NCBI RefSeq assembly: GCF_030269925.1
Contig: NC_085129.1
Location: forward strand, 16,049,501 to 16,113,500
Direction of reading: 5' to 3'
DNA length: 64,000 nt
Origin: Bombyx mori
Lineage: Eukaryota; Arthropoda; Insecta; Lepidoptera; Bombycidae
The number at the start of each line of letters is the position of its first letter. Position 1 is the stretch's first letter. This document shows, one piece after another, positions 10,456 to 40,974 of this stretch. Position numbers and translations under genes: made by a program. The notes beneath the pieces are model-generated. The model was given only the letters and a program-made list of their open reading frames with translations, searched no databases and had not been told where the DNA came from.

Positions 10456-13400
10456 TCAGAACACGGGAACGCGCGCGCGGTCGGCTCCGGCCAGCCCATC
10501 GTCCAGCGTGAGGTACATGTTGAAGGAAAGGAACATGGCGACGGCGGACATCGCGTGCCAAGCGTCGTGCGCGTCGAACAGTCGCAGCACGCTGCACGCC
10601 GCGTTGCGCTCCCGGGACTGCGCCGGGCTGAGCTGGGGGGCCGGAGGGGCGGACTCTCAGTACCAATTGCGCAGACTATACCTTATGTAGTTTTGATTCT
10701 TATTACACCATGTTGTTCCTTCACTGTGGAAGTCATCCGTGAACACAGTTACGATACTCAGTGCGAGTGCACGGTCTAGCTCGTGATCTAGTTCAGGGAC
10801 TCACAAACTGTTCAAGAAAAGAGACCTCTTTACCAAAATGCATTGACACTTCTGACCCCCCTAAGCAAAATTGGTCGGTCAAGTGAGCAACTCGACATGA
10901 GTTTCTCAATAAAATTTAACAAAACAAATAAACGTCCACCGCCCCGCCGCGGCGCCGTGCTCCAGCAGCTATAGACCTCGCAACGAGCAGGTGCAATGTA
11001 CTGAATATTTCATACAAGAACTTGTGGAAATTAGCAGGGGTCGGTCCCCGGGTCAGTGGGGGGACCCCCCCAGGAACGCGGCGCACACTCACCGCCCAAT
11101 TGGTGTTCTGGTCCAGGTAGAAGTAGCTAGACCCGGCCCAGCTCGAGTACGTCAGGACTATGAACACCCACCTGCGGAGGTGAGGGTCAGCGTGAGGTCA
11201 GCGCCCAGAGTCGTACGGACTGTCCGGGACACGATTATATCGAAAACATTTAAGTATATTGTGAGCTGCAGTGCGGGCGGCGCGGGGTCCACGACCCACG
11301 GAACACACAAACTTTTAATTTGCTTTACATTGCGCCTTTACAAAATACGAAGATAACTGGTGGTGGGGTGTCTTGTGAGTCTTTTTTTTATTGCTTATAT
11401 GGGTGGACGAGCTCACAGCCCACCTGGTCTCAAGTGATTACTGGAGCCCATACACATTTACAACGTAAGTGCGCCACCCACCTTGAGATATAAGTTCTAA
11501 GGTCTCAGTATAGTTACAACGGCTGCCCCACCCTTCAAACCGAAACGCATTACTGCTTCACGGCAGAAATAGGCAGGGCGATAGTACCTACCCGCGCGGA
11601 CTTACAAGAGGTCCTATCAGCAGTAATTACGCAAATAATAATTTTGCGGGTTTCATTTTTATTACACGATGTTTTTCCGTCACCGTGGAAGTCAGTCGCG
11701 AACACACAAACTTTTACTTTGCTTTACATTGCGCCTTTACAAAATACGAAGATAGCCGGTGGTAGGGTGTCTTAAAGTCTGCGCGGATTTGTACCACCAT
11801 CCCTACCATTTCTGCCGCTAAACAAACCTATGCCCCAGTTCGAAGGGTTATACCGTTGAGACTTCGACCTCATTTCTCAAGGGGCCGGCGGCCCGCCCGC
11901 ACTCGCTCTCGGTACTGAGGGTCAGGTAGGTAGTCACGTGTAGCAGGTGATGGTCTCCCGGTGCAGCAGCTTCATCACGATGTAGAACAGCGTGTACAGG
12001 AACAGGTTGGTCATCAGCACGAGCAGGAGGTGGGAGGCGAAGTCCCGCGAGTGCTGCGCTACCCTGCGGCACACAGACACACCACACGTACAGCAATACA
12101 TTTGTATATGTATACCAGCGGTCGGGGAACGGGGTGAATTACCCCAAATGGGGTAAAATGAAATTTTGGGGGGTAAATATGAAACTTTTGTGAGTAAAAA
12201 GTATATATTGAATAGAAACTAGGCTAATATTTATATGAGTGTTGGACTCCCTACGCCAGTTACGGAGGCGTTAATGATGAGAATCTTTGTGGGGCTGAGA
12301 AATAATAATGTTAATTTTAAATGCCCAGCGAAGCGGATGGGTACAGCTAGTTCTATATATTAATACGTGAAGCAAAAACTTTGGAGACTTTTTGGCGGGA
12401 ACGCGAGCAGTGAAGTTGTGTGGTTTGTTTTATTTTGTCTATTTAGTCAGGTTTAAATGTATAGTAACTGTATTATTAACTGTTTAATATCTGTGAAAGT
12501 GCACAAATGTGGGAAAATGAAACAAAGCCGCTGGACGTAACTTCTCGGGATCCTTCAAGAAGTCCACTGAAAAAGTCTCAGTAAATGACCACCATTTTAC
12601 TGAGATTATATTTCATCCCATATCATCTCATCTCATTTAATTTAATTTCATCTAAGTTGATTAATGTCTCAAATTATCTTCATTTCATTTCACTGCGTAT
12701 CATTTTTCATACGAAAATTGCACGGACGGAGGAGTATGAAATTTCCCACAATTATAGAGAATACAGAGGAGTGCAGACTGTTAATTGTTTTTTTAGTTAT
12801 GCATAAGAAATACATTAAATCAATAAATAAAAAGATTACACCCACTACCATGTATTTGACGCACACAAGCATGCATACTATTTGTTTATTGTCAAACTTT
12901 TCTTATTGCTTATAGTCTGTGGTCAAATTGAGAATAGATTAAAATTAAATATTGTTTGTCTTTAATATTATATATCTATAGTATAGTCTTAGCAAAATCT
13001 GTAATTATAGAAGCATAACAGTCTTTAACAATAGAATCATAATAGTGTACAAACTTATAATTACAATTAATTACAGTCGAATTTCGACTACCGGGCGACC
13101 ACTAGTTATATTAAAAAGGCCACTTATAGATTTTCTAAATACACAAATTCACTTGCGGTGGGCCGAGCTGTGTTCATAGCCACAGCGGGATAGTTACAGT
13201 TCGCAGCCGCTGTGCAATACACATGTGACTCCGACCTTATGTCTTAGGAAGCCCGCCCCCCCTCGCGCCCGCCTCATATCTGGGCCGAAACTCACCCATT
13301 TACCAAAAAAAAATCTATCTCGTGCTAATCAAGACACCGGTATACTTTAAGAGTCCCTTTGTCCGCATCTGAATTTAGACCCCCCTATAGTCCCCCATAT

Positions 13401-16400
13401 GGCCACCACATATCGGACAGTGACGTCACAATGGTCCACAAAATGTTAGTCCCAAACCTCATTTATACACAAACGACTTTGATGCCAACGTGAACTAGTT
13501 CAGTGCACGTCGTCACCCCTGACTGTAAAATTAGTGAGTTTCCTGACGAAGCACGAGTCCTCTGCGTGTTAGAGACGTGCACAGTTGGCCGCTGCGGTCC
13601 GTGGGCCACAGTGGCCGGCGGTGCGAAGTGGCTGTTTGTATACCCGTATCCCGCCAGCCCCCAGTTGATCAGGTTGGCGAGCAGCAGCATGAGACCGCGC
13701 GAGGGGCGGAGGGCGGCCCCCCGGCTCGCGGCCCTCACCCACCCCATGTCTGCAGGGACACAACGACGCTATAGGAACCACTCAGAAGCGGCGACAAATA
13801 TAACATGAGTGAGATGTAGAGGGTCGTGACGTCATCAATTCAATGAAAATAAATAATTTGATTCACCATTTTATTATTGGTGGTAGGGCCATGTGAGTCC
13901 ACACGGGTAGGTATCACCGCCGTACCTCTTTCTACCGTGAAGCAGTAATGCGTTTCGGTTTGAAGGGTGGAGTAGCCGTTGTAACTATACTGAGACCTTA
14001 GAACATATATCTCAAGGTGGGTGGCGCATTTACGTTGTAGATGTCTATGGGCTCCAGGCTGTGAGCTAATCCACCCATCTAAGCAATAAAAATAAAATAA
14101 AATAAAAACACCAAACAATGTTTTTGTAAGTTTTCTATACGATTACTCGACACCTCGGACTAGGGAGCATTTGACCACAAATGACGTCACGTCCGAACAG
14201 TTTAGTTTCTGCGTTGCAGATAGATAGAGTTCAGGAACTTACCCAGCTTAAACCTGCCCAGGTAGTATATTTGGAAGGTAATGAAGAAGCAGGTGAGGAG
14301 GTGTAGCGCGGTGAAGGCCACCCAGAAGTAAACGTTCGCGTTGAGCACACCCACCAGACCTCGGGGGAGACACAGGGGTTAGCAACCGGCGCCCCGCGCA
14401 CCACCAGGGCGTGCGGGGGCGCCGATATATATATACTAATAAACCTTTACCGTAAGCCCTTTGTGCAGTCTCACAAAATGCAACAAAAAACAAACAGTCT
14501 ATTTGTTGTTGAAAAATGATGCCATCGTCTTTATTTTGACCATCGCACCGCCCGCCACCGGAGCAGAGTCCATCCATACTACCTGGAACCACTGCGTTCA
14601 TCCACATCCAGAGGTCTTTTTTGCCCCGTACCATCCGGCTATGGAATGAGCTCCTCTCCAGTGTTTCCCGAGCGCTATGACATGTCCTTCTTTAAAAGAG
14701 GCTTGTGGAGAGTGCTTAACGGTAGGCAGCGGCTTGGCTCTGCCCCTGGCATTGTCGAAGTCCATGGGCGACGGTAACCACTCACCATCAGGTGGACCGT
14801 ATGTTGCCCAGTCGAACCGCAAGGACCGATTAGGTTACCGCGAACGTCGCACGCACTTGTGGGTAGTTTTAACAAGTTTTGAATCCTACTTATTTTGATT
14901 TATCAGAACATACACTAAAAAGTTCATATCTAAAATCAATACAATGAGTGTTCTTGAGGCACTGCGGAGTCATCGACCTCGTGTGAGGGTTCGCGTTCCA
15001 TTGCGTGTTGCGAAGGCGACACGCTCGCACCCACTCACCTATAAATATGATGAGCGCCAGGACCCCGAAAGTGGCGTGTGCTCTTGCGTTGATGTCGGGG
15101 TGCCGAGACTGGTAGATCTTCACCATGCAGAGCGCTGACGTCACGTACATGAACGACGTGTCTGTGTGTTTTAATGCATAGGCGTTTCAGTGATTTTTAC
15201 TTGTGGTAGAAACTCTTGTGAGTACACACGGGTAGGTACCACCGCCCTGCCTAAATAGAAACGGCAGAAATCTGCCGTGAAGCAGTAATGCGTTTCGGTT
15301 TGAAGGGCGGCGCAGCCGTTGTAACTATACTTGAGACCTTAGAAGTTATATCTCAAGGTAGGTGGCGCATTTACGTGTGAGCTCGTCCACCGAACTAAGC
15401 AAAAACTTTTAATGGTAGTGGCTCATGGACATCAGAATCCCACGAGCCGGCGAGCAGCCGTACATCGCTGACTGGAGCGGACGGAGCCTCGTCGGCAGAA
15501 GGTTAGTGGACTATTAGAACAGGGTCTTACCGAACTGGAAGTTCATGCTGTTGGGGCAGACGTGGTAGGCAGCCGACAGAAAGCCCTCGCTAATCAGGGC
15601 GACGCCCATCGCGTACAGCAGCCCGAAGTGCTGGGGGATGCCTTTCTGTTTCTAGAAGAACGTATCGGGAGCTCAACAAGGGCGGGACCGCACGCCGCGA
15701 GAGGGCAGGGGGACACAATACTGCCCCTATAATTTTAGAGTCAAAACCGAATAACATCTCCATTATTTCTGCCGCGGTGCAGTCATCTGTTCCAATTTGA
15801 GGAGTGGAGCAGATGTCAAATTTTATATTGAAATAGACTACAATGTCCACACCGCATCCACTAACACAATGTGCTAGTCCTGCCGAAATCCAACATACTG
15901 TTACGCCGATAAGAGTAAAGCCATCTATCGCCGAATAGTCGAACGAATATCGAAGGATCTAGTAACACTTAGAACGCTCGAGAAGTACAACGCCATCTAT
16001 TGTCAGATAGCGGAAACACCATACTGGAGATGTGTGGAATATTCTCGATAATTCTAGGGATGAGGTATCCGCTATAAAAGCGTTTCAGAGATGGCAAGCA
16101 GCCAGTCAGTAATCGGAACTAGTCGAAGCGAAACAGCGAACGGATCACCTGAAGCGAAGCGGAGCAAGCAAATTGAGAGTTTTTAAATGTTTGTTGAGTG
16201 TTTTAAAGTATTTGTGAAGTGTTTTAAGTGTTGAATACAGTTTTTAGTTGTACTCCGATAGAATTTTTATTTATCCCGAACCCCAGCGCGTCACAATACC
16301 TTTTCCTCTGGTTCGTTTCTCATGATCCTCTGCCTCCTCCAGACCTGCAGCAGGAACAGAGCCCCAAGCACCACGTAGCCCAGATTCGAGAACACGTGGT

Positions 16401-19400
16401 TAAAGTCGGACAGCATCATCAGCGGATGTGCGCAGAAGAAGTTGAAGTAGCACAGGTCCTGGTTCCCGGACTGGTTTAGGAGCTGAAAGAGATTTGTTAC
16501 TGCACTCGTCGTACTGCGTCATGGCTACGCGAACGAGGCGGCATGTGCTTTCCGCCCTTGACCTAAAGCTGAATATTGCGTGACAAGTTTATTGGCGTCG
16601 CTACTGGTGAACGTAATGTGGTGATAGCAGTTGACCCCCCCTCCCCCCATCGCGCCGTCCTTCCACGCGCCTTGCCGTTTGCAAACGTAGGGCAGAGATA
16701 GGGGGCACCTCACAGCCAGATGTCTCACGATGAGTCATAAGTATTGAGGTTGTGATGACGAGAGCTTATTATCAGGCGGCCATCGTGTTGTCACCTATAT
16801 TCCTTGTTTATGGTGTCACGTGGGAGCCGGACGGACCCCGCGGGGTCTGGACCTGGAACAGTTACAGGTGGACTTACCCGTTGGTAGGTGACCACCAGCT
16901 GCAGCACGGGCAGCGTGTAGAACACGGAGACGGTGAGCACGGTCCACAGGTACCGGTTGGAGCGCGTGGCGAGCACCCGGGCGCGGCACCTGCGGGGGGA
17001 GGGGGGGTCACCGGCGCTATGATGAACGTCAGAGCGACGACAAAAGCTTACATTAATTTCACACACATCAAAACAGTTTATGAAAAAATATGCTCACGGA
17101 CGCTCATGGCCCCTTATCAGCTAACGGCTGCATATTAGCAGTCAGTGCCGAGACTGGAGTTTTGAAGCTTATTTATATACATGTCGGGAAGAATGCTCAT
17201 GAGAGCTCATGAATGCTCACACGTAAGTATCGTCCCCTTAGGTCTCAGGTTTGCACAACGCACCTAGACAGGTCGGCCAGGCACAGCTTCGTGCCGTATC
17301 GGTACAGCTCCTTGTCCGTGGTCACGTCGTCCAGCGTCGAGTACTCCGACTCCGTGTCTGACTGAGAATCGACTGGAAGTGAACATAGATAATAACAATG
17401 ACAAAATGAGCAATCGGTAAATAGACGCTAAATTTATCAACAGGTTTGAGAAAACTGCGGGCAGTTGGTTCTCAAAGTTGTGAAATATTTGTAGGCCCTC
17501 ACCGGAGCTTCCATCCGTGGGCCGCGGGAGGGACGGTCCCTCTCCGGAGCTCTGCCCCTCACTGCCGTGTGAAGACCTCACTATAGTCTCTGCGGAAAAC
17601 AACACTTTACAAGTGATATAAGACGAAAGCGCCCCGCGTACAAACCGACACTAGAACAAACATCTATATACTATATGACGTTCGTCGCTGTTGCTACTTC
17701 ATATAGTTTTTACAAAATCATTAATGTAATAATAAAAAACCGTCTAAATTTGTTCAAACTTCTAACGCACGGACATGACAAGCTGACACTTTTTATTGAG
17801 TCATACAAAACGAAAGTCAATAAATAAAATATAGCCCCCCGATCAACCCCCCAGTCACCTCGTCCCGAATCCAGATGCCGTACATACATAAGTTTCATTT
17901 TTTTTTATTGCTTTGGTGGGTTGACGAGCTGACAGCCCACCTGGTCTTAAGTGGTTACTGGAGCCCATAGACATCTACAACGTAAATGCGACAGCCACCT
18001 TGAAATATGGGTTCTAATGTATAGTTAGTTACAACGGCTGCCCCGCCCTTCAAACCGAAACGCATTACTGCTTCACTGCAGAAATAGGCAGGGAGGTGGT
18101 ACCTACCCGTGCGGACTCACAAGAGGTCCTACCACCAGTAAAATACTAGATATATTAGACATCCAGGCAGAGCTTAAACAAAATGCAGATCACGTCCGTA
18201 AGCATTCATTACCGGACGTGAGCACCGAACCCACCGACCCCCGGTCCAGTAGCCAGGACCGCTGACCACCGCGCCATCGAGAAACTTTATCGGTATCTCT
18301 GAGGGCAGTTCAAATCTCTTACCCTGGTCCTGGTGCTCCACTCCCGTGGACTTTCTGCTTTGGTAGAGCACGAAGACGAAGAAGGCCAGGTAGAAGGAGG
18401 CGTAGAATAGCACAGTGGCCCCGGCGGCTATCAAGTACTCTCTGTACGATATCGTCTCCACGATCTTGAACCTTGCAACATTTTTTATTCTTAGTGCTAC
18501 GGATCTGACAAGCTCGCACTAAGTTATTCCTTCTTTTTTTTATTTGTTGCTTAGATGGGTGGACGAGCTCACAGCCCACCTGGTGTTAAGTGGTTACTGG
18601 AGCCCATAGACATCTACAACGTAAATGCGCAACGTACACCTTGAGGTATAAGTTCTAAGAACCCAAGTATAATTACAACGGCTGCCCCACCCTTCAAACC
18701 GAAACGCATTACGGATGAAATAGGCACAGTGGTGATACCTACCCGTGCGGACTCACAAGAGGTCCTACCACCAGTAATTACGCAAATTATAATTTTGCGG
18801 GTTTGATTTTTATTACACGATGTTATTCCTTCAGCGTGAAAGTCAATCATAAACATTTGTTAAGTACATATTTCATTAGAAAAATTGGCACTTGCCGGCG
18901 GGGTTTGAACACCGTTGCATCGCTTGATACGAATGCACCGGACGTCTTATCCTTTATCCATAGAAGAAGGCACATTTACATATTTTATATACACAAATGT
19001 ACAATACCGTGAGATGAATCTACCCTCGTTATAAGAAAAAAATGTTCACTAGAGCCGCGTCCCATTAAACTTACCTAAAATTCTTGACCCGACCCTCCGT
19101 GCTACTGACTTGGATGTTGTCCCCCCAGCCCAGCAGACGCGCCACGGCGGGCACGGACCCATTGGTCCCCGGCTCCTTGCAATCCTCGTCCGATGTTTTG
19201 ACTATGAACACTATGTAGAAGCCGATCGGAAACGTGTCTTGCTGGAAGGAGATGGAGAGTCCCAATGCTTTGTCGGTAATTAAAGGTCATCGCCGCCGTC
19301 ACCTGACCACGAGGTCGCGGCTTAGAGGGTAGGTTGCAATCAAACGTTATATACAGTCCTAAAGGTCCTTGACCGCGAGCCCGTCTCTCATTTTTTTATT

Positions 19401-22400
19401 GCTTAAGTTGGTGGACGAGCTCACAGCCCACCTGGTGCTAATTGATTACCGGAGCCCATAGACATCTACAACGTAAATGCCGCCACCTACCTTGAGACAT
19501 GAGTTCTAAGGTCCCAGTATAGTTACAACGGCTGCCCCACCCTTCAAACCGAAACGCATTACTGCTTCACGGCAGAAATAGGCAGCGTGGTGTTACCTAC
19601 TCGCGCGGACTCACAAGAAGTCCTACCACCACTAATTACGCAAATTATAATTTTGCGGATTTGATTTTTATTACACAATGTTATTCCTCCACCGTGAAAG
19701 TCAATCGTGAACATTTGTTGAGTACGTATTTCATTAGAAAAATTGGTACCCGCCTGCGGGATTCGAACACCGGTGCATTGCTCAACACAGATGCACCGGA
19801 CGCCTTATCCTTTAGTCCACGATGACTTCATTAGGTAGTCGTAGTTTAGATAGTCGACCCCCCCCCCCTCCCTGCTGTCCACGGGCCTCAGTCGGCGACT
19901 GGCGGCACTGGAGCGCGGTTCAGCGGTACTTACAGTGAGCGTGATCCCTCCTCGTCTCGTCATAGTTAAATAGTACCCGTCGTACAGTATGTCGCGTTCG
20001 TTGTCGAACACGGGACACTGGAACCAGAAACCCACGATTACATCCGGCTATCGGCTATCGACCAGTCAACAGAAATTAGATACCTATGAGTATGTGTGAT
20101 AGAGAAGCCACTACATTGAATTATGACGTCAAAAGTAAGTGGGCGACTCTAATCACATACGAGCCACCCCTCTGTCCCCTGCAATGACTTCAAACCCTTA
20201 TATCTCACAATTTTATGAAACATTGTAAATATTTCTTCAAAACGTGCACTAGATTTCATTGTACCAAGCCATTTATTTATAATTAGTGAATACTTATATA
20301 CCTGGACTATTCAAGTAGACCTCTGAGCTACGGCTCCCGGTAGCTATTTAAGTGTTTGTGTCCATATATTAAGTCAATGGGGGTGGGGCAAAAAAGTTTG
20401 AGAGCCACCGACCTAGGCACTCACCGAGAAGTTCTGTATGGAGACGACAGCGCAAAGCTCGTCGTCGGATTCGATCATGACTATGACGTTCTCGGGTCGG
20501 GAGAGCCACCCGTACCCAACCTCGTTCCTCTGCACCTCGCCATGCCCCCTCCCACCACTCGCGCCACAGATGTACTCCTTACGCATTTTCTGCTCGTCAA
20601 AATCCACCGTTTTCCCTGAGCCCTTTTTGAATGGATAGAAGTAGTATTTAGGCTGGCTCGGCGAGACCGTTATGTTGATGGTCTGATTGATTTTAATGTA
20701 GAAATCTTGGACTTTTTCCACTAAAATGGTGACTTTCAACTGTTCTGACGAGGACGACGTCAGATGGACTATAGGCGTGTTCAGGGAGGGTGCATCTGTA
20801 ATGAAGACGTACCGGTAATGTTGAGTGCGCGAACTATTTTCGATCATATTTCTAAGCTCTTTAGGTCGCTTTTTACGTGGACGCACAAGCTCAGGGACAT
20901 ATTGAAAGCACGTGGGTAGCAGCGTCAAGTTTTCCAAGCGGTGTCTTCCAGCTCGAGGAGTGAGGCAGCCGATATACCTCGTCAGATGGAGCACTGTGAG
21001 CTGTTCATCCAGAGCCATTAAAAAGGGGACTGGATGGGAGTATGTCTGAGGAGTCATATATCTATTTGTAATAGCAGCTGCAGTATAAGCAAGTCAGAGC
21101 CTCCGGGCTGCACGGCGTGCGGGATGACGGGTCGTTCAGACCGCTAGCTTACCGTGTGAACTACATACGTGAGCTTTTAGAAATCACACCAGTGCTTTTA
21201 ATTAAAATCGTGACTTCTATAAAAAAAAAATTATGAAATTATAACAAAATATTTACTTCTGAAGGAATCACAGTACAATATCATCTCCTTTTCGTTAACT
21301 ATGGAAAGCGTGAAAATTTTAATTGTAATTAGTAAAATAGTACACGACGGGAGACGAGAGGCTATGTATATATTCTTTTTATTTTCAAAATTTGACAAAT
21401 GATTCTCAAAGTTTAAATTAATTATGAAAAAACTTGTATAATACAATAAAAGCGGTTTTGTTTCGATATAGAAACAGTGCCCTTTTCAGAAATCAACGCA
21501 CAATTTAAGCAAGGCGGTGGTCGCTGATCACAACGGAACTGCCACATTCTGAAATTTAGAACTGAAAGCCTTTATAGAGACCGAAGGGTACAGCTGTCCT
21601 GAATGCCACAAAACCATTCGAGTGTCCTTATATGAAACAGGACGGATGTTTAAGCTATAGGCACGCGGGGGGCGATTGGGGGCGAGGGGGGCGGGAAGGG
21701 GGCGAGGAATTTATAGTTTCCCCTGCATATACATTGCCTTGGGCCCTTTAAGCAGGACGGGTTGGCGAGTCCGGTATACTGACACTCACCACAGGCCTCG
21801 GCGTCTTCATCGAACATGTTGTTGTGAGGGCAGAGGGTTCTGGATATGCTAGTGAACTGTTCCGTGGTTACCGGGGTCTGGACCAGCATTGGCAGTTGCC
21901 ACGAGAACACCCCTGCAACGTGTAAGCAGCTGACCGTGAAATTTTGATCATTCTTAATTATTATTATTATTATTGCTTAGTTGGGTGGACGAGCTCACAG
22001 CCCTGGTGTTAAGTGGTTACCGGAGCCCATAGAAATCTACAACGTAAATGCCGCCACCCACCTTGAGATATGGTTTTCTAAGGTCTCAGTATAGTTACAA
22101 AGGCTACCCTACTCTTCAAATCGAAACGCATTAGTGCTTCACGGCCGAAATAGGCAGGGTGGTGGTACCTACCCGTCCTTCCACCAGTAATTACGCAAAT
22201 TATAATTTTTCGGGTTTGGTTTTTTATTACACGATGTTATTATTCTTTCACTGTGGAAGTCAATCGGGAACATTTGTTATGTACGTATTTCATTAGAAAA
22301 ATTGGTACTCGCCTGCGGGATTCGAACACCAGTGCATCGCTAGACACAAATGCATCGGACGTCTTATCCTTTAGGCCACGACGACTTCGTTCGACGGTTC

Positions 22401-25012
22401 GTTCATACATACCTTTCTGCTGTCGAGCTGTGACGAACAACGGGTAGGTTCTATTGGCGCTGTCGCAGGCAACCGTCACCCTAGCGGGGACGCTGTGAAA
22501 CTCCTGGAAGTCCTAAGCAAGGGTTCAGAAAGTAGACTGTTTTTCAAACTTTTAAATCACAGGTTATTTATGAACAGAACTAAAAAACATGTAGCTTTGC
22601 ATGAATTTTTATTCAGTTTTAATAGATGTGTCATGGTAAAAAATCGGGAATTGAGTATACCTTGAATGTAACAGTAGTATGGGACCAAGTTGGTGTGAGG
22701 CAGAAGATTCATAGACCTTCACATTGTTACTTGTACAATTTGGGCCCAAAGGGCTTGTTTTCAAGAATATTAAGATTATTTGCAGAGCATGTTTTAAACT
22801 TCAACTAGTTTTTTTTTTTTTTTTAATAAATAAATAAATATTTACTAACAATCACGCCACGTTAACTGGTCCCGTGATAAGTTCGTAAAGAACTTGTGTT
22901 ACAGGTACCAGATAACGGATATAAATGTAAGATTTTTATTATACACATACATATATATATAATAGACATCCATAACCCTGGAAAAGACATTTATATTTAT
23001 AATACAAATATCTTCCCTTGGCGGGATTCGAACCCGCGACCCCCCTGTGTAGTGACCATGTCACTTACCACTACACCAGATGGCCGTTTATAACTAGATG
23101 TTTATTAGAAGAAAAATATTTTATTCCTAATATATAGTTACAATTTATCAGTGATCTCTGCACTAAGCATAGCTTGTATTGCAAAAAAAAACTATAACTA
23201 TCCCTGATTAGGTAATTAATTATACATTTAAGTTTCAAATGGGATCAATTTATAATCAAATCAAATTTAAGTTGATCTTTGAAATGTTTGCAACAATTTT
23301 ACATATTAAGAGTAAGTCTGTAGACTTTCTTCTGGTTTCTGGCTCTTCTGGAAATAACAAAAATAGAGATGGTGTTTTTGCTCACCCCTCCAAACTCCAT
23401 TATATATTCGGTGCTCTTGTTTACATATAACGTATATGTAACATCATATTTGTATCTGAAAATGACAATTTCATATTTTTTTTGAGTGTACTAGAGAATG
23501 GTTTATCAAAATGAGACACATGAGCACACTGTTATTCATCAGCTAGTGTATAAGGGCTCTCGATAAGGTTCACTCATACTTAATTTACTCATACTTTTGT
23601 GCACTGTTTTACAAAAACAAGTTTAACAGTAGTTTCAGAATTTTTGTTCATAGATTAAACCTGTTTAGTATTCTTGAATCAGCTATTATTATTATTACTA
23701 GAGGTCCCGCAGTATTCGAAATTCGACTATAATAATTAATTGGAATTGTAAGTTTGTAGACTATTATGATTGTATTTTATACCTCTATAATCACAAATTT
23801 CGCCAAGGCTACACTATAAAAAAAAAATTAATAAAGACAAACAATATTTAATCTATTCTCAATTTGACCACAGACGTCAAGAACAAAAGTTTGACAATAA
23901 ATAGTATGCATGCGTGTGTGTGCGTCTAATACATAGTATGTAGTGTGTGTAATGTTTTCTTTATTGATTTAATGTATATTTTATGCATTATTGTAAAAAA
24001 TTATTAGCATTGTGCACTTCTTCTCTATATTCTCTATAAGTGTGGAAAATTTCATACTCCTCAGTCCGCGCAATTTTCGTAAAAAAGGGATTCAAAGTTT
24101 TTGCTTCACGTATTAATATATAGATTATTATTATGATCAGTTATTACCATTATACAGAACTTGATTCAGCTATTCCAATTTATCTGTCATGGTATTGTGT
24201 CTTTTTTTTATCCGTTAAGTAAAACTATCTGTAAATTACAGGGCTATTTATGCAAGACTCCAGGTTAGGGGAATGAACTGAGTACTAGTGGCAGATGGTG
24301 AATGCATCTGATTGGCATGATTTGACTAGTGATTTTCAAATTATGTTATTTTCAATCAGACAGTTTCAAACAGACTCTTCATATTAGTTGTGCCATCGGC
24401 TTTGACAATATCTATGGGTATTACACAGTCAGATCAGCTGTACACTACCCTGCACTGGCATAGAAATCACATTTACTAACTAGTAAGGGTAATTAAACTA
24501 CTATATGAGATAAAAATGAAAGCATCCCGGTAGCATTGCATTGATAAGCGACAAGACTTGCTATCAGACAACAGTAATTCTGTTTATTTTGTTGTTATAA
24601 ATAATTAACATTGTGTTTAAAAATAAGATAAGAATGTTGACATTATGAACTTATGACTACAGACTTCATTTTTATGGTAAAAAAGTCCAATTCTTGATAT
24701 TGTTTCTTCCTTGACATTAGCTTGAAGAGACCTAAGGGGCTCAAAGATGATATGCTGCAAAAAAAATACGCATCCCCGAGGAAGCTACTAAGTTACAAAG
24801 TTAAATAAATAATGCCAAAGCGACCTTCGTTCTTTTCCGACTCTTTCATCTGTGTAACAAAGGTCCCAACATCCACTCTCAAAGAATCGGGTACGGAAAT
24901 TTATTACTTACGTGTTATTGTAGTAGAAAATAATGTCTTCCTTGTAAAAGCTCTGCTGTAGTGAGAGAAAAGGAAAACCTAATGTTATTACTAACAATAG
25001 CAACGTATACAT
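10456..25012 (-). CDS. SID-1 transmembrane family protein (SIDT / SID-1-like)
   Basis: Multi-pass membrane protein of the SID-1 family, implicated in dsRNA uptake and systemic RNAi in nematodes; the insect role is debated. Inferred coding exons, 5' to 3': 24912-25012, 22413-22512, 21790-21912, 20425-20795, 19934-20017, 19075-19241, 18323-18471, 17503-17589, 17264-17372, 16878-16989, 16300-16482, 15531-15651, 15039-15161, 14243-14359, 13644-13749, 11938-12063, 11093-11171, 10456-10632. All junctions from exon 2 on are in phase with GT-AG ends, about 811 residues in total. Exon 1 has a hydrophobic signal peptide ([18 protein letters not shown]). The extracellular domain has '[12 protein letters not shown]' and 'SIQNFSCPVFD'. 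The membrane part has '[20 protein letters not shown]', '[13 protein letters not shown]', '[12 protein letters not shown]' and '[10 protein letters not shown]'. The C-terminus has '[19 protein letters not shown]' and 'LTLDDGL' and ends in 'VPVF', all family hallmarks. Oddities: exon 1 ends two bases into a codon but exon 2 starts a codon, so a microexon or sequence difference is unresolved; a solo LTR disrupts the exon 11 donor. Lepidoptera carry several paralogues; which one this is cannot be told. Confidence 0.95.
10687..10746 (-). mobile_element. Bm1 SINE fragment
   Basis: About 60 bp of the Bm1 central segment (TTACACCATGTTGTTCCTTC, then the CGTGAACA block) in the last SIDT intron, 54 bp from the acceptor of the final exon. 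Confidence 0.7.
11303..11372. repeat. 70-bp direct repeat, copy 1
   Basis: From ACACACAAACTTTTAATTTG to GGTGTCTT. It recurs with few mismatches at 11703-11772, the two copies bracketing a Bm1 element. Confidence 0.85.
11378..11702 (-). mobile_element. Bm1 SINE, headless at 5' end
   Basis: Poly-T then TTGCTTATATGGGTGGACGA through to GTCAGTCGCGAACA in reverse orientation. It lies between two copies of a 70-bp direct repeat in the SIDT intron between exons 16 and 17, and interrupts an older Bm1-like segment. Confidence 0.88.
11703..11772. repeat. 70-bp direct repeat, copy 2
   Basis: Second copy of the sequence at 11303-11372. Its 3' part (CCGGTGGTAGGGTGTCTT) and the following 100 bp resemble a decayed plus-strand Bm1. 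Confidence 0.85.
12111..12350 (+). mobile_element. Possible Helitron-like element, 3' end
   Basis: The 3' end GCGAAGCGGATGGGTACAGCTAG at 12328-12350 has the CTAG terminus of Helitrons, followed by T and then directly by the TC start of the next element. The 5' boundary is not clear, so the start is approximate. Confidence 0.4.
12352..13105 (+). mobile_element. Non-autonomous Helitron, family 2, longest copy
   Basis: Begins TCTATATATTAATACGTGAAG and ends in CTAG at 13102-13105. A perfect 6-bp stem hairpin, GTCGAA-T-TTCGAC, lies at 13076-13088, 13 bases before the terminus, which is classic Helitron 3' architecture. It lies in the SIDT intron between exons 15 and 16. Shorter copies with the same ends are at 23698-24124 and 59982-60409. 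About 300 bp of its interior (12400-12700) is absent from those copies. No helicase coding was seen. Confidence 0.75.
13872..14106 (+). mobile_element. Bm1 SINE, headless short form
   Basis: Starts at TATTGGTGGTAGGGCCATGT and ends in CTAAGCAATAAAAATAAAAT. It lies in the SIDT intron between exons 14 and 15. Confidence 0.9.
14475..14832 (+). mobile_element. Non-LTR retrotransposon 3' end (jockey/CR1-like)
   Basis: Plus-strand frames give 'RTIRLWNEL'-like text and then '[20 protein letters not shown]', followed by a '[11 protein letters not shown]' block and a terminal 'HGRR' plus stop. This is the C-terminus of a non-LTR reverse transcriptase polyprotein, with frame breaks. It lies in the SIDT intron between exons 13 and 14. 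Confidence 0.78.
15202..15408 (+). mobile_element. Bm1 SINE, headless short form
   Basis: Starts at CTTGTGGTAGAAACTCTTG and ends at CCACCGAACTAAGCAAAAA. It lies in the SIDT intron between exons 12 and 13. Confidence 0.9.
15899..16295 (+). mobile_element. Solo LTR at the SIDT exon 11 splice donor
   Basis: A 397-bp segment starting TGTTACGC and ending GCGTCACA (imperfect inverted termini, TG...CA). It is flanked by a 4-bp target duplication, ATAC at 15895-15898 and 16296-16299. Inside are a TATAAAA box at 16073-16079 and a TCAGT initiator about 30 bp downstream, so the LTR promoter reads on the plus strand, antisense to SIDT. No internal retroelement coding sequence or second LTR is present. 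A 4-bp duplication fits Ty3/gypsy-type elements; the family is not identified. The 3' duplication overlaps the 5' splice site of SIDT exon 11. Confidence 0.8.
16073..16110 (+). promoter_or_regulatory. LTR core promoter (TATA box and initiator)
   Basis: TATAAAA at 16073-16079 and the arthropod-type initiator TCAGT at 16106-16110, correctly spaced, within the solo LTR. Transcription from here would run antisense to the SIDT gene. Confidence 0.5.
17897..18143 (-). mobile_element. Bm1 SINE, headless short form
   Basis: From poly-T and TTGCTTTGGTGGGTTGACGA to GGTCCTACCACCAGTAA, in the SIDT intron between exons 7 and 8. Confidence 0.92.
18533..18962 (-). mobile_element. Bm1 SINE, full length
   Basis: From poly-T at 18533 through all body segments to the tRNA-derived head (CCGGCGGGGTTTGAACACCG at 18894-18913, B-box-like in reverse). 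It lies in the SIDT intron between exons 6 and 7. Confidence 0.93.
19391..19832 (-). mobile_element. Bm1 SINE, full length
   Basis: From TTTTTTTATTGCTTAAGTTG to the head with GCGGGATTCGAACACCGGTG (RNA polymerase III B-box in reverse) and CCTTTAGTCCACGATGAC. It lies in the SIDT intron between exons 5 and 6. Confidence 0.95.
21958..22388 (-). mobile_element. Bm1 SINE, full length
   Basis: Tail (ATT)n then TTGCTTAGTTGGGTGGACGA, ending in the tRNA-like head GCGGGATTCGAACACCAGTG and CTTTAGGCCACGACGAC. The head lies only 24 bp from the donor of SIDT exon 2. Confidence 0.95.
22806..23092 (-). mobile_element. tRNA-derived SINE, not Bm1
   Basis: Read on the minus strand, a tRNA-like head begins GGCCATCTGGTGTAGTGGTA (A box) and carries GGGTTCGAATCCCGCC (B box) at about 23014-23035. 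About 200 bp of unrelated body follows, then a (TTTA)n and poly-A tail. It lacks every Bm1 body segment. It lies in SIDT intron 1. A free-standing tRNA gene is unlikely because the body and tail follow and the acceptor stem is not clearly paired. Confidence 0.7.
23698..24124 (-). mobile_element. Non-autonomous Helitron, family 2
   Basis: In reverse orientation it runs from TCTATATATTAATACGTGAA at 24124 to CTAG at 23698-23701, with a TCGAATTTCGA hairpin just before the end. It is 427 bp, in SIDT intron 1. Confidence 0.72.
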
Positions 25013-27216: not shown

Positions 27217-30200
27217 TCAGAGCTGCAACACGTCAGAGAGGCAAGTGTCGATTCGCGGCTTCTGCGTCCTCTTGGCGGCGGAGCGCGTCCGGAACTTGCT
27301 GGACTCGAGGCTGGGGGTCAACGACTTGATGCATCTGCGGACAACAATTCAATCTTCAATTGTAATAAGTATTGAAAACAGTCGCATGTACAAAATAAAC
27401 TGCGGGTATGTAGGAAGATGCTACTAGTGGAGACTTTCAATAGACACTATCTGTTCGAAACCAATCTGTAATATAACTAATCTGTGGGAACGGGTTGCGA
27501 ATTGGCACGGCGTTCGCGACTTGATATCTATCACTTCAGCTTGCTCGAACGGGACGGTACCCTCATGTGTGACAGTCTTGCTATGATACCCTACGGTTTT
27601 GCATTATCACTAATCCTTATCCATTCCTGCCCTAAAGCCTTCTCCCTAAGTGAACGGCGTGAGTCGACGAGGTCATCGATTCCGGTGAGTGATTAGACGA
27701 TATTTTGTTAAAATAGTACATACGGCGCTGTGGGTTGCGGCACATGTTCGACGGGCACCTCGTGCTGGTTTCCGGAGCCCTAGGCTGCCACGAGGGCGCT
27801 GGGTTCGGATCGCACACTATCAATAGTAATTTGGTTTAGAAATACAGAAATCGTTGATGTAAAATTACATCTTTACCCCTACTATGCAGGGCGGTGTAAG
27901 CAACTCAGCTGATGTTCAATATAAATCCGACATCTTTCTGATGTCAAGTGTATCAAGATTACTGGTTGTGTACGTACTTGGCAGCATCGTGTAGCTTCCT
28001 GGCGAGCAACTCGTTCTTCATGTTGGCGGCGGCGAGCTCGCGCCGTAGCTGCGCCCGCGACTTGATCGGCGCCGCCACGCCGCGCCACGCCCCGCCCCGC
28101 CACGCCATGCGACGCAGGCGACGCGCTGACGGACGCGCGCTCGGAGACGGGTCCACCATGCTCTGAGGAAACAACGCGATCGGTCAGGTACTACAAACCA
28201 ATACTTATTGTTTTAGATCAGACCATACATACCTTGAGGAGATCATTGAACTCTCTGGACAAGTTTGGCAAATCTGGTAATTTTCCGTCCCTGTAATCGT
28301 GCCATTTTTGTCCGTTTTTAGGTAATGGTCCCCCTCCAGCTGCCTCGAATAACGTCAAACCTGGAACCAACGGATCTTAACAACAACTGGACGGTGAACT
28401 TGTTTACTAAAATACAGTACGTATGAGCAGGGTGTACTTTGTTTAAGCTTTTCCGCAATAGTGGTTGCAGGAAATTACTCACCAAAAGCAAATATGTCAG
28501 CTTTAGGTAACTGCGAAAAGTCTTCGTGTAAGACTTCCTTGGGTAGGTACCTGCAGTCGCCTTCCTCTACAGCGGGCGAAGATACACATGTCACATGACC
28601 TAGGTCACCTGTAATCACAAATGAAAACAATTCTAAAATTATTTCATCAGACATTACTTTGTGGAGTGATGTCCCATTGGGTCAGTGCTGAGCGTCACAA
28701 ATACCCACACTGAAACCTGGCGGATGAAATACAAAAAAAAATTAAGTTAAATAAAAGTATCGTTTGTCTAACCTTAACAAACCACCAACAAAGAAATCAT
28801 TGAACTGCCATAACACTAATAATTTTGTTATTTAACATTACAGAGGTCATTTGTAAATTAAGATATTCTTTAATATATATTACTTTCATGAACATTTAAC
28901 ACATTTAATTCTTTCTTCTATCAAGCGAGAAAGCATTGGGAGGCATTAGAATGATTGTGAATACATACCGATTTTATATTTATGATTAGGAGCTGGTTCC
29001 TCGTCGTCGTAGCCGTCGTCTGACTCCCTGCAGGCGTCCACGTCACCGCTGCATATGAATATGTTACCGGGCTTCACGTCCATGTGTACTAGTTGCTGGG
29101 AGTGTATATAGCTGTAGAGAATAATTACATATTACTATAATACACATAGAATTACAAGAAAATTACAATTAGACAAAGTAACATATCATTTCTCACGAAC
29201 TAATAGTTTTTATCAAATCATTTGTGCCTGAAAAGTCATACATATTTAGTTCTCGTGATAGGCCAGGCCTGGTAGAGGGTCAATCTGAACCAGGCTGCTT
29301 AACATTTTTACTGATAACATGTTGTTCTTTGAATTTCAAATGAAAAATGTTGTATTTATTTTCATTTTTGTGTTTTAATATGATATCTAATTAGTTGAAG
29401 ATAAAGATTTTAAAGTACCGAGTTAGGTCATACATAGTCACAACAGAACAAGTGCAGTAAGACTCCGACTTCTAAAGGCAGTGTGCCCGTGGTTCAGTTC
29501 TCATGTCAACTAATCAATCCAGCGAGGCGACTGGGCCGTGTGCACTTACGCGAGTCCTGCAGCTATGTGTGAGAGTAGTATGAGGAGTTCGCTCTCCGGC
29601 AGCGGCCCGTCCTCCATCTTCAGCTGTAAGGAGCCTCCGTCGCAGTACTCGTTCTGGATTATCATGTGATCGTCCTCCGCCCAGGCCGAGTAGTATCTGC
29701 ATGTAATGCAATATTATATTTTATCAATGAGTACTGCGTGCCTGCGTGCGTGAGTGCGGGCGTGCGTACGTGCGTGCGTGCGTACCTGACCACGTGCGGA
29801 TGTTTCCCCAGGGCGGCATGCGCGTATACCTCGGTGAGGGCGGCGCGCTCGGCGGCGGAGCCCGCCACGGGGCGCAGGGAGCGCTTGAGGGCGTAGACGC
29901 AGCCGTCCAGTTTGTTGACGCACCGGGTGACGCGCCCGAACTGCCCGCGTCCGATGACTCCCAGCTCTATGAACTCCACGTTGTAACGGGATATATTCGA
30001 TTCCTGTTTTAAAGAAGAGCATTTCCTATACATTTCGACTGTTCCTAGATATAATTGTCAATCGATATAGTAATGAAACAGCCATTTCACTACAATAGAC
30101 TTGTTGAGCAATTCTTCATGACTTACCTCAATATTCTGATTAACAGAAATGTACTAGTTAAGTTATGAGATAGTGGTATGTGGTATGTGAGTGCGACTTA

Positions 30201-40425: not shown

Positions 40426-40974
40426 AAAAGAGAATTAGTACAAAGGTTGTATATTTATGCAAACTCTTTTCTCAAAGTTAAATGTTTTAATGGCTTTATT
40501 ATCTCTCTATTTCTCTTTCTATCTCTCTGTCTGTCTCTCTTTCATACTAATGCTTCACTAGACATTTTGTCTTTTGTGAGGCCGCATGAATTTTTTATAG
40601 CTATCCGATTAATAAAACTGTTATAAGCGTAACACATTTGAATAGATTAAAAATAAAACTGCACCGTGAAATTTGTCATAAATTAATAAAAAAAGAAACG
40701 GTTTGTCAATGAATATTATCTGTTATTTGTCGAATCGCCATGTTTAAGTCTGTGATAGTGTGACCAATTATGTGACAGTGACAGGAAGTGCACGCGTCTC
40801 CGTATCCAAAAATAGTAGAGCATTATTTAACGCTAACGATATTTTGTTTAGAATTAAAATTTAAAGAATTTCAGAACATATTTTCTTCTTTTTAATGTCC
40901 TACGGGGAAGGTATTGTATTTTAAGATCCTGAATGGAAGAACAGTGAATCCGCTGTATATACTGGTAGTAGCAA

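Follow-up and report, generated by a model that had tools for sequence, protein, structure and literature searches.

A likely solo LTR at the 5′ splice site of coding exon 12 in a silkworm SID-1-like gene is probably tolerated

Whether SID-1-like genes determine how strong systemic RNAi is in insects has long been an open question, for which the silkworm is an awkward case with three such genes and weak RNAi, as stated in an excerpt of the 2008 report of full-length cDNAs for all three silkworm sid-1-like genes (PMC2395250). The 64,000-nucleotide stretch of Bombyx mori DNA analysed here (the window) carries on its minus strand a gene of this family, SIDT, with a probable long terminal repeat (LTR) lying against the 5′ splice site of one of its exons (Table 1). 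An earlier note on this DNA had suggested that the gene may be a damaged allele, with an inferred link to the poor systemic RNAi of the silkworm, which raises the question of whether the insertion has cost SIDT a splice donor. We consider it more probable, at roughly two chances in three, that this is a tolerated intronic LTR, with a donor that is not visibly destroyed and an LTR that is removed with intron 12; the proposed link to systemic RNAi found no support here.

Table 1. Positions of the SIDT gene and of the inserted element within the window (a slash in a donor marks the exon/intron boundary)
Feature	Position	Strand	Remarks
SIDT gene	10456-25012	-	uninterrupted reading frame of 834 aa over 19 coding exons
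Exon 17 (12063-11938) plus first four bases of intron 17	11934-12063	-	donor CAC/GTGACT, in-frame TGA
SIDT coding exon 13	15531-15651	-	holds LSAAYH; follows exon 12 without a gap in P0001
Intron 12	15652-16299	-	648 bp at present; 247 bp after subtracting LTR plus one repeat (401 bp)
ATAC target-site duplication, copy far from the exon	15895-15898	.	minus strand: start of the old GTATGT
Likely solo LTR	15899-16295	+	397 bp, antisense to SIDT
TATAAA and CAGT initiators of the LTR	16073-16110	+	antisense, toward exon 12
21-bp tandem repeat, 2.9 copies	16173-16232	+	within the LTR, beyond the initiator
ATAC target-site duplication, copy next to the exon	16296-16299	.	minus strand: GTAT, first four intron bases
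SIDT coding exon 12	16300-16482	-	donor AAG/GTATTG; exact P0001 reconstruction

Among proteins of solved structure, the SIDT product was similar to human SIDT1, human SIDT2 and C. elegans SID-1, and like the rest of the SID-1/SIDT family it matches the membrane domain and keeps the conserved His and Asp blocks. The Pfam model for this domain (PF13965, SID-1_RNA_chan, cut-off 28.7 bits) scored 543.9 bits with the database protein P0001, described below, and 436.4 bits with window exons 12–19. The zinc site of C. elegans SID-1 is formed by three His, an Asp and a Ser from helices 4, 5 and 11, according to the excerpted text of PMC11194109. In SIDT the motifs LSAAYH, FDTSF and DAHDAWH aligned with human SIDT1, and LSAAYH is likely to be the Ser/His part of the zinc site, with the Asp at the join of exons 13 and 14; the spacing of the LSAAYH serine shows no simple fit to the C. 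elegans site as that excerpt describes it. The third-position G+C of the gene was 0.38–0.45 in exons 1–2 and reached 0.78–0.98 in exons 10–19.

The exon structure was supported by P0001 for exons 1–17, and by likeness to orthologues only for exons 18 and 19. P0001 is 750 aa long, its cluster comprises 5 member sequences and 7 contigs with a longest contig of 2,500 bases, and its source label 'lgn' presumably stands for assembled public sequencing runs. Joining coding exons 1–17 of the window gave a protein identical to P0001 at 750/750 residues. GT-AG chains were searched up to 15 bases from the approximate exon ends, and the sole chain found, in line with a pairwise comparison, puts the end of exon 12 at 16300 and the start of exon 13 at 15651; by this numbering the interrupted exon is coding exon 12, and not exon 11 as first counted. 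As the exons are distributed over 13,079 bases of the window, against at most 2,500 bases for the contig, P0001 comes from spliced RNA. On the evidence of these matching sequences, the 16300–15651 splice occurs in RNA of the SIDT gene, and since exons 12 and 13 are joined exactly, the insertion is probably of little harm. The earlier note had held efficient splicing at 16300 against its own reading; the exact splice is present in P0001, whereas its efficiency and the allele it came from are beyond the reach of this protein.

At the splice site itself, the coordinates, ends and flanking repeats of the element were confirmed as described before. The last base of exon 12 is 16300 and intron 12 now opens with GTATTGTGAC, the element starting at intron position +5. 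Its ends, TGTTACGC and GCGTCACA, have the form TG...CA, with 7 of 8 inverted-end positions complementary, and the 4-bp ATAC on either side is within the 4–6 bp size of LTR target duplications; the far ATAC copy is now 401 bp inside intron 12. When the flanks were joined without the element, the exon ran into AAG/GTATGTTGG, a consensus donor, and the donor thus changed from AAG/GTATGT before insertion to AAG/GTATTG after it, with loss of the +5 G, as had been proposed. We infer that integration duplicated GTAT, the four exon-adjacent bases of the donor, and that later recombination left a single LTR. U1 would still recognise AAG/GTATTG, and the LTR would be spliced out with intron 12, making the insertion near neutral.

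The strength of the donors was estimated from predicted duplexes with the end of U1. For the exon 12 donor the predicted energy was -6.3 kcal/mol at the empty site, where GTATGT already had a mismatch to U1 at +4, and -5.7 kcal/mol in the presence of the LTR; the far copy, ACA/GTATGT, paired poorly (-1.6 kcal/mol). Of the other 17 SIDT donors four were no better, with those of exons 1 (-5.2), 6 (-4.9) and 17 (-1.7) weaker and that of exon 10 (-5.7) equal, and two of these 17 donors lack the +5 G as well, exon 16 (GTATAC), which is spliced in P0001, and exon 17 (GTGACT). A predicted pairing of -5.7 was reached by 5.9% of 3000 GT sites sampled in the window, and within exon 12 and intron 12 it was exceeded at 2 of 46 GT sites, namely CAG/GTGATC at 16148 inside the LTR (-8.2), the use of which would lead to a truncated protein, and CAG/GTCTGG at 16344 inside exon 12 (-6.3).

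The main rival is that the LTR cripples the donor in its carriers, so that transcripts run on and the protein ends in Lys-Val-Leu after its likely third helix, with P0001 coming from an empty allele. The predicted run-on agrees as sequence with the read-through stop of the earlier note, since translation past 16300 gives ...EEKVL-stop, and such a truncation would cost the protein all that follows from roughly membrane helix 4 onwards, including the zinc site. The lost +5 G, this stop directly behind exon 12 and the stronger cryptic donor within the LTR speak for a crippled donor, and P0001 may come from a strain without the insertion, but the change in U1 pairing is just 0.6 kcal/mol, inside the range of the other SIDT donors, and the identity of P0001 over 750 residues is as expected of a near strain. 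P0001 aside, the 120 matches listed out of 1268 were all at ≤71% identity, and a database search with the truncated ...EEKVL protein gave 17 matches from 70 candidates, all at ≤70% identity, so that a close truncated relative is absent among the matches listed; a truncated form may be hidden in the P0001 cluster of five. A crippled donor is thus unlikely, and together with the exon join in P0001 the small drop in pairing does not bear out the claim of a damaged allele.

A second rival, which we hold to be less probable again, is that the 397 bp are ordinary intron sequence in which the ATAC repeat arose by chance. The bare end pattern (TG..CA, 7/8 inverted ends, a 4-bp repeat and a length of 250–700 bp) is indeed not rarer than chance, with 5 occurrences in the 64-kb window versus a simulated mean of 2.75 (55 matches in 20 simulations), and no second copy was found in the window, where the best match besides the element itself was 18 bases long (E 0.87). 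A 17-mer at 40618–40634 which resembles the start of the LTR was rejected, as it has 3 mismatches and the similarity goes no further. Pieces of the element also gave no match in viral contigs or in bacterial and archaeal genome contigs, both of which are non-insect collections. However, with one end fixed at the splice donor, a partner end arose by chance in 7 of 20,000 simulations, and removal of the element restores a consensus donor. Internally, a TATAAA at 16073 precedes CAGT initiators with their A at 16104 and 16108, 31 and 35 bases further, which confirms as sequence the TATA/initiator pair of the earlier note, and in addition to the 21-bp tandem repeat there are two 37-bp repeats, 72 bp apart and 70% alike. 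Of polyadenylation signals, neither AATAAA nor ATTAAA is present in the 397 bp, and there is one AATACA at 16234. Ends, repeats and the TATA/initiator pair fit the solo LTR first suggested, which remains the likely identity of the element, although no second copy of it was found in the window.

The element shares with solo LTRs of intronic LTR retrotransposons the TG...CA, the short inverted ends and the 4-bp target duplication, as well as the internal TATA/initiator and an orientation opposite to the host gene, and it may derive from an LTR retrotransposon of the Ty3/gypsy or BEL/Pao type. It differs in sitting at donor position +5, where the duplicated target is the donor's own GTAT. In Introner elements a splice site is supplied by the target duplication, and the element resembles these in having splice-site bases in the duplicated target adjoining the exon; it differs from them in that intron 12 very likely predates the insertion, the duplication having merely kept donor bases on both sides.

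That the LTR lowers SIDT expression as an antisense promoter, independent of splicing, is very improbable: its TATAAA and initiators do aim through exon 12 and the upstream exons of SIDT, but TATAAA occurs 117 times on both strands of the window and twice with CAGT at that spacing, the element's included, and solo LTRs are often silenced.

Two unexpected findings in SIDT may weigh more than the LTR, the first being that the gene has evolved fast and the second its weak exon 17 donor, just behind the last residue of P0001. After the exon 12–13 junction SIDT shared 72.7–77.3% with 15 chosen orthologues, whereas with Manduca as reference the 14 other orthologues shared 83.8–92.1% over the same region. 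The path from Plutella was 0.831 for SIDT versus 0.201–0.476 for the other 14 after the junction, and 1.691 versus 0.856–1.291 before it. A tree built from 31 selected rows put SIDT inside a moth/butterfly clade of 23 rows (support 98), where its end branch of 1.01 was the longest (next 0.57), although the placement of a row with such a long branch is uncertain and end-branch lengths depend also on the relatives sampled. The longer branch sets SIDT apart from the compared moth and butterfly SID-1/SIDT members, most clearly in exons 13–19. The first half of the protein grouped with Dendrolimus and Manduca, and the second half most closely with Galleria, followed by Manduca.

Changes found only in the window at otherwise invariant sites numbered 20 in 281 columns after the junction, with at most 6 for any other species, and 15 in 490 columns before it, where Plutella had hardly fewer (14). 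Third-position G+C is 0.69–0.98 in exons 8–19, and amino-acid bias was considered as sole cause of the fast evolution and rejected: among the 35 window-only changes, G/A/R/P were gained 5 times and lost 3 times, and F/Y/M/I/N/K gained 5 times and lost 9 times, which makes bias alone insufficient. Relaxed constraint would fit these data, as would a gene duplicate freed from constraint.

A weakness in splicing, if there is one in SIDT, is likelier at the donor of exon 17 than at that of exon 12. The exon 17 donor had by far the weakest predicted U1 pairing among the 18 SIDT donors. P0001 ends in ...CYT, and the next codon in the window is TGA when read into intron 17 and Trp when read into exon 18; exons 1–16 of the window followed by 12063–11934 encode P0001 in full, all 750 residues, with a stop directly after them. 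P0001 is therefore likely, from these sequences, to represent RNA that keeps intron 17, and its protein would be missing exons 18 and 19, and with them the zinc-site HxxxH; alternatively, its contig may stop at that very codon. A search with a C-terminal fragment containing the exon 17–18 join returned 33 matches from 1239 candidates, none of them close (72% at best over the full query, and otherwise 76% over a sixth of it), and no full-length or C-terminal SIDT match from the same species was among the matches listed.

From the fast evolution, an exon 17 donor with almost no predicted U1 pairing left and the likely retention of intron 17, it could be argued that SIDT is decaying in the silkworm lineage through erosion of splice sites and not through the LTR, an idea which we regard as doubtful. 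If it held, the SID-1-like protein made from the gene would be short of its last membrane part and of two of the three histidines at the zinc site, and weak systemic RNAi would have a definite molecular candidate. The LTR can be dropped as a ready-made explanation of weak RNAi, and the exon 17 donor together with the fast evolution of SIDT offers a testable place instead. In titles and abstract beginnings of the literature on LTR insertions at splice sites and on silkworm sid-1 genes the insertion was not reported. An excerpt of PMC4376736 lists a 'low quality protein' model for silkworm SID1, which was not matched to the SIDT gene here, and the excerpt of PMC4526369 lists names only.

Elsewhere, sequence of one SINE, presumably Bm1, as would fit Bombyx, recurs in at least 20 places scattered over 779–61951 of the window, with matches of up to about 450 bp. 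One copy in intron 17 (approximately 11380–11704) lies between 74-bp direct repeats (11301–11374 and 11700–11773) that are 94.6% identical and very long for a target-site duplication. At 29662–30033 on the minus strand lies the beginning of a gene for a protein kinase (Pfam PF00069), Wee1-like by eye.
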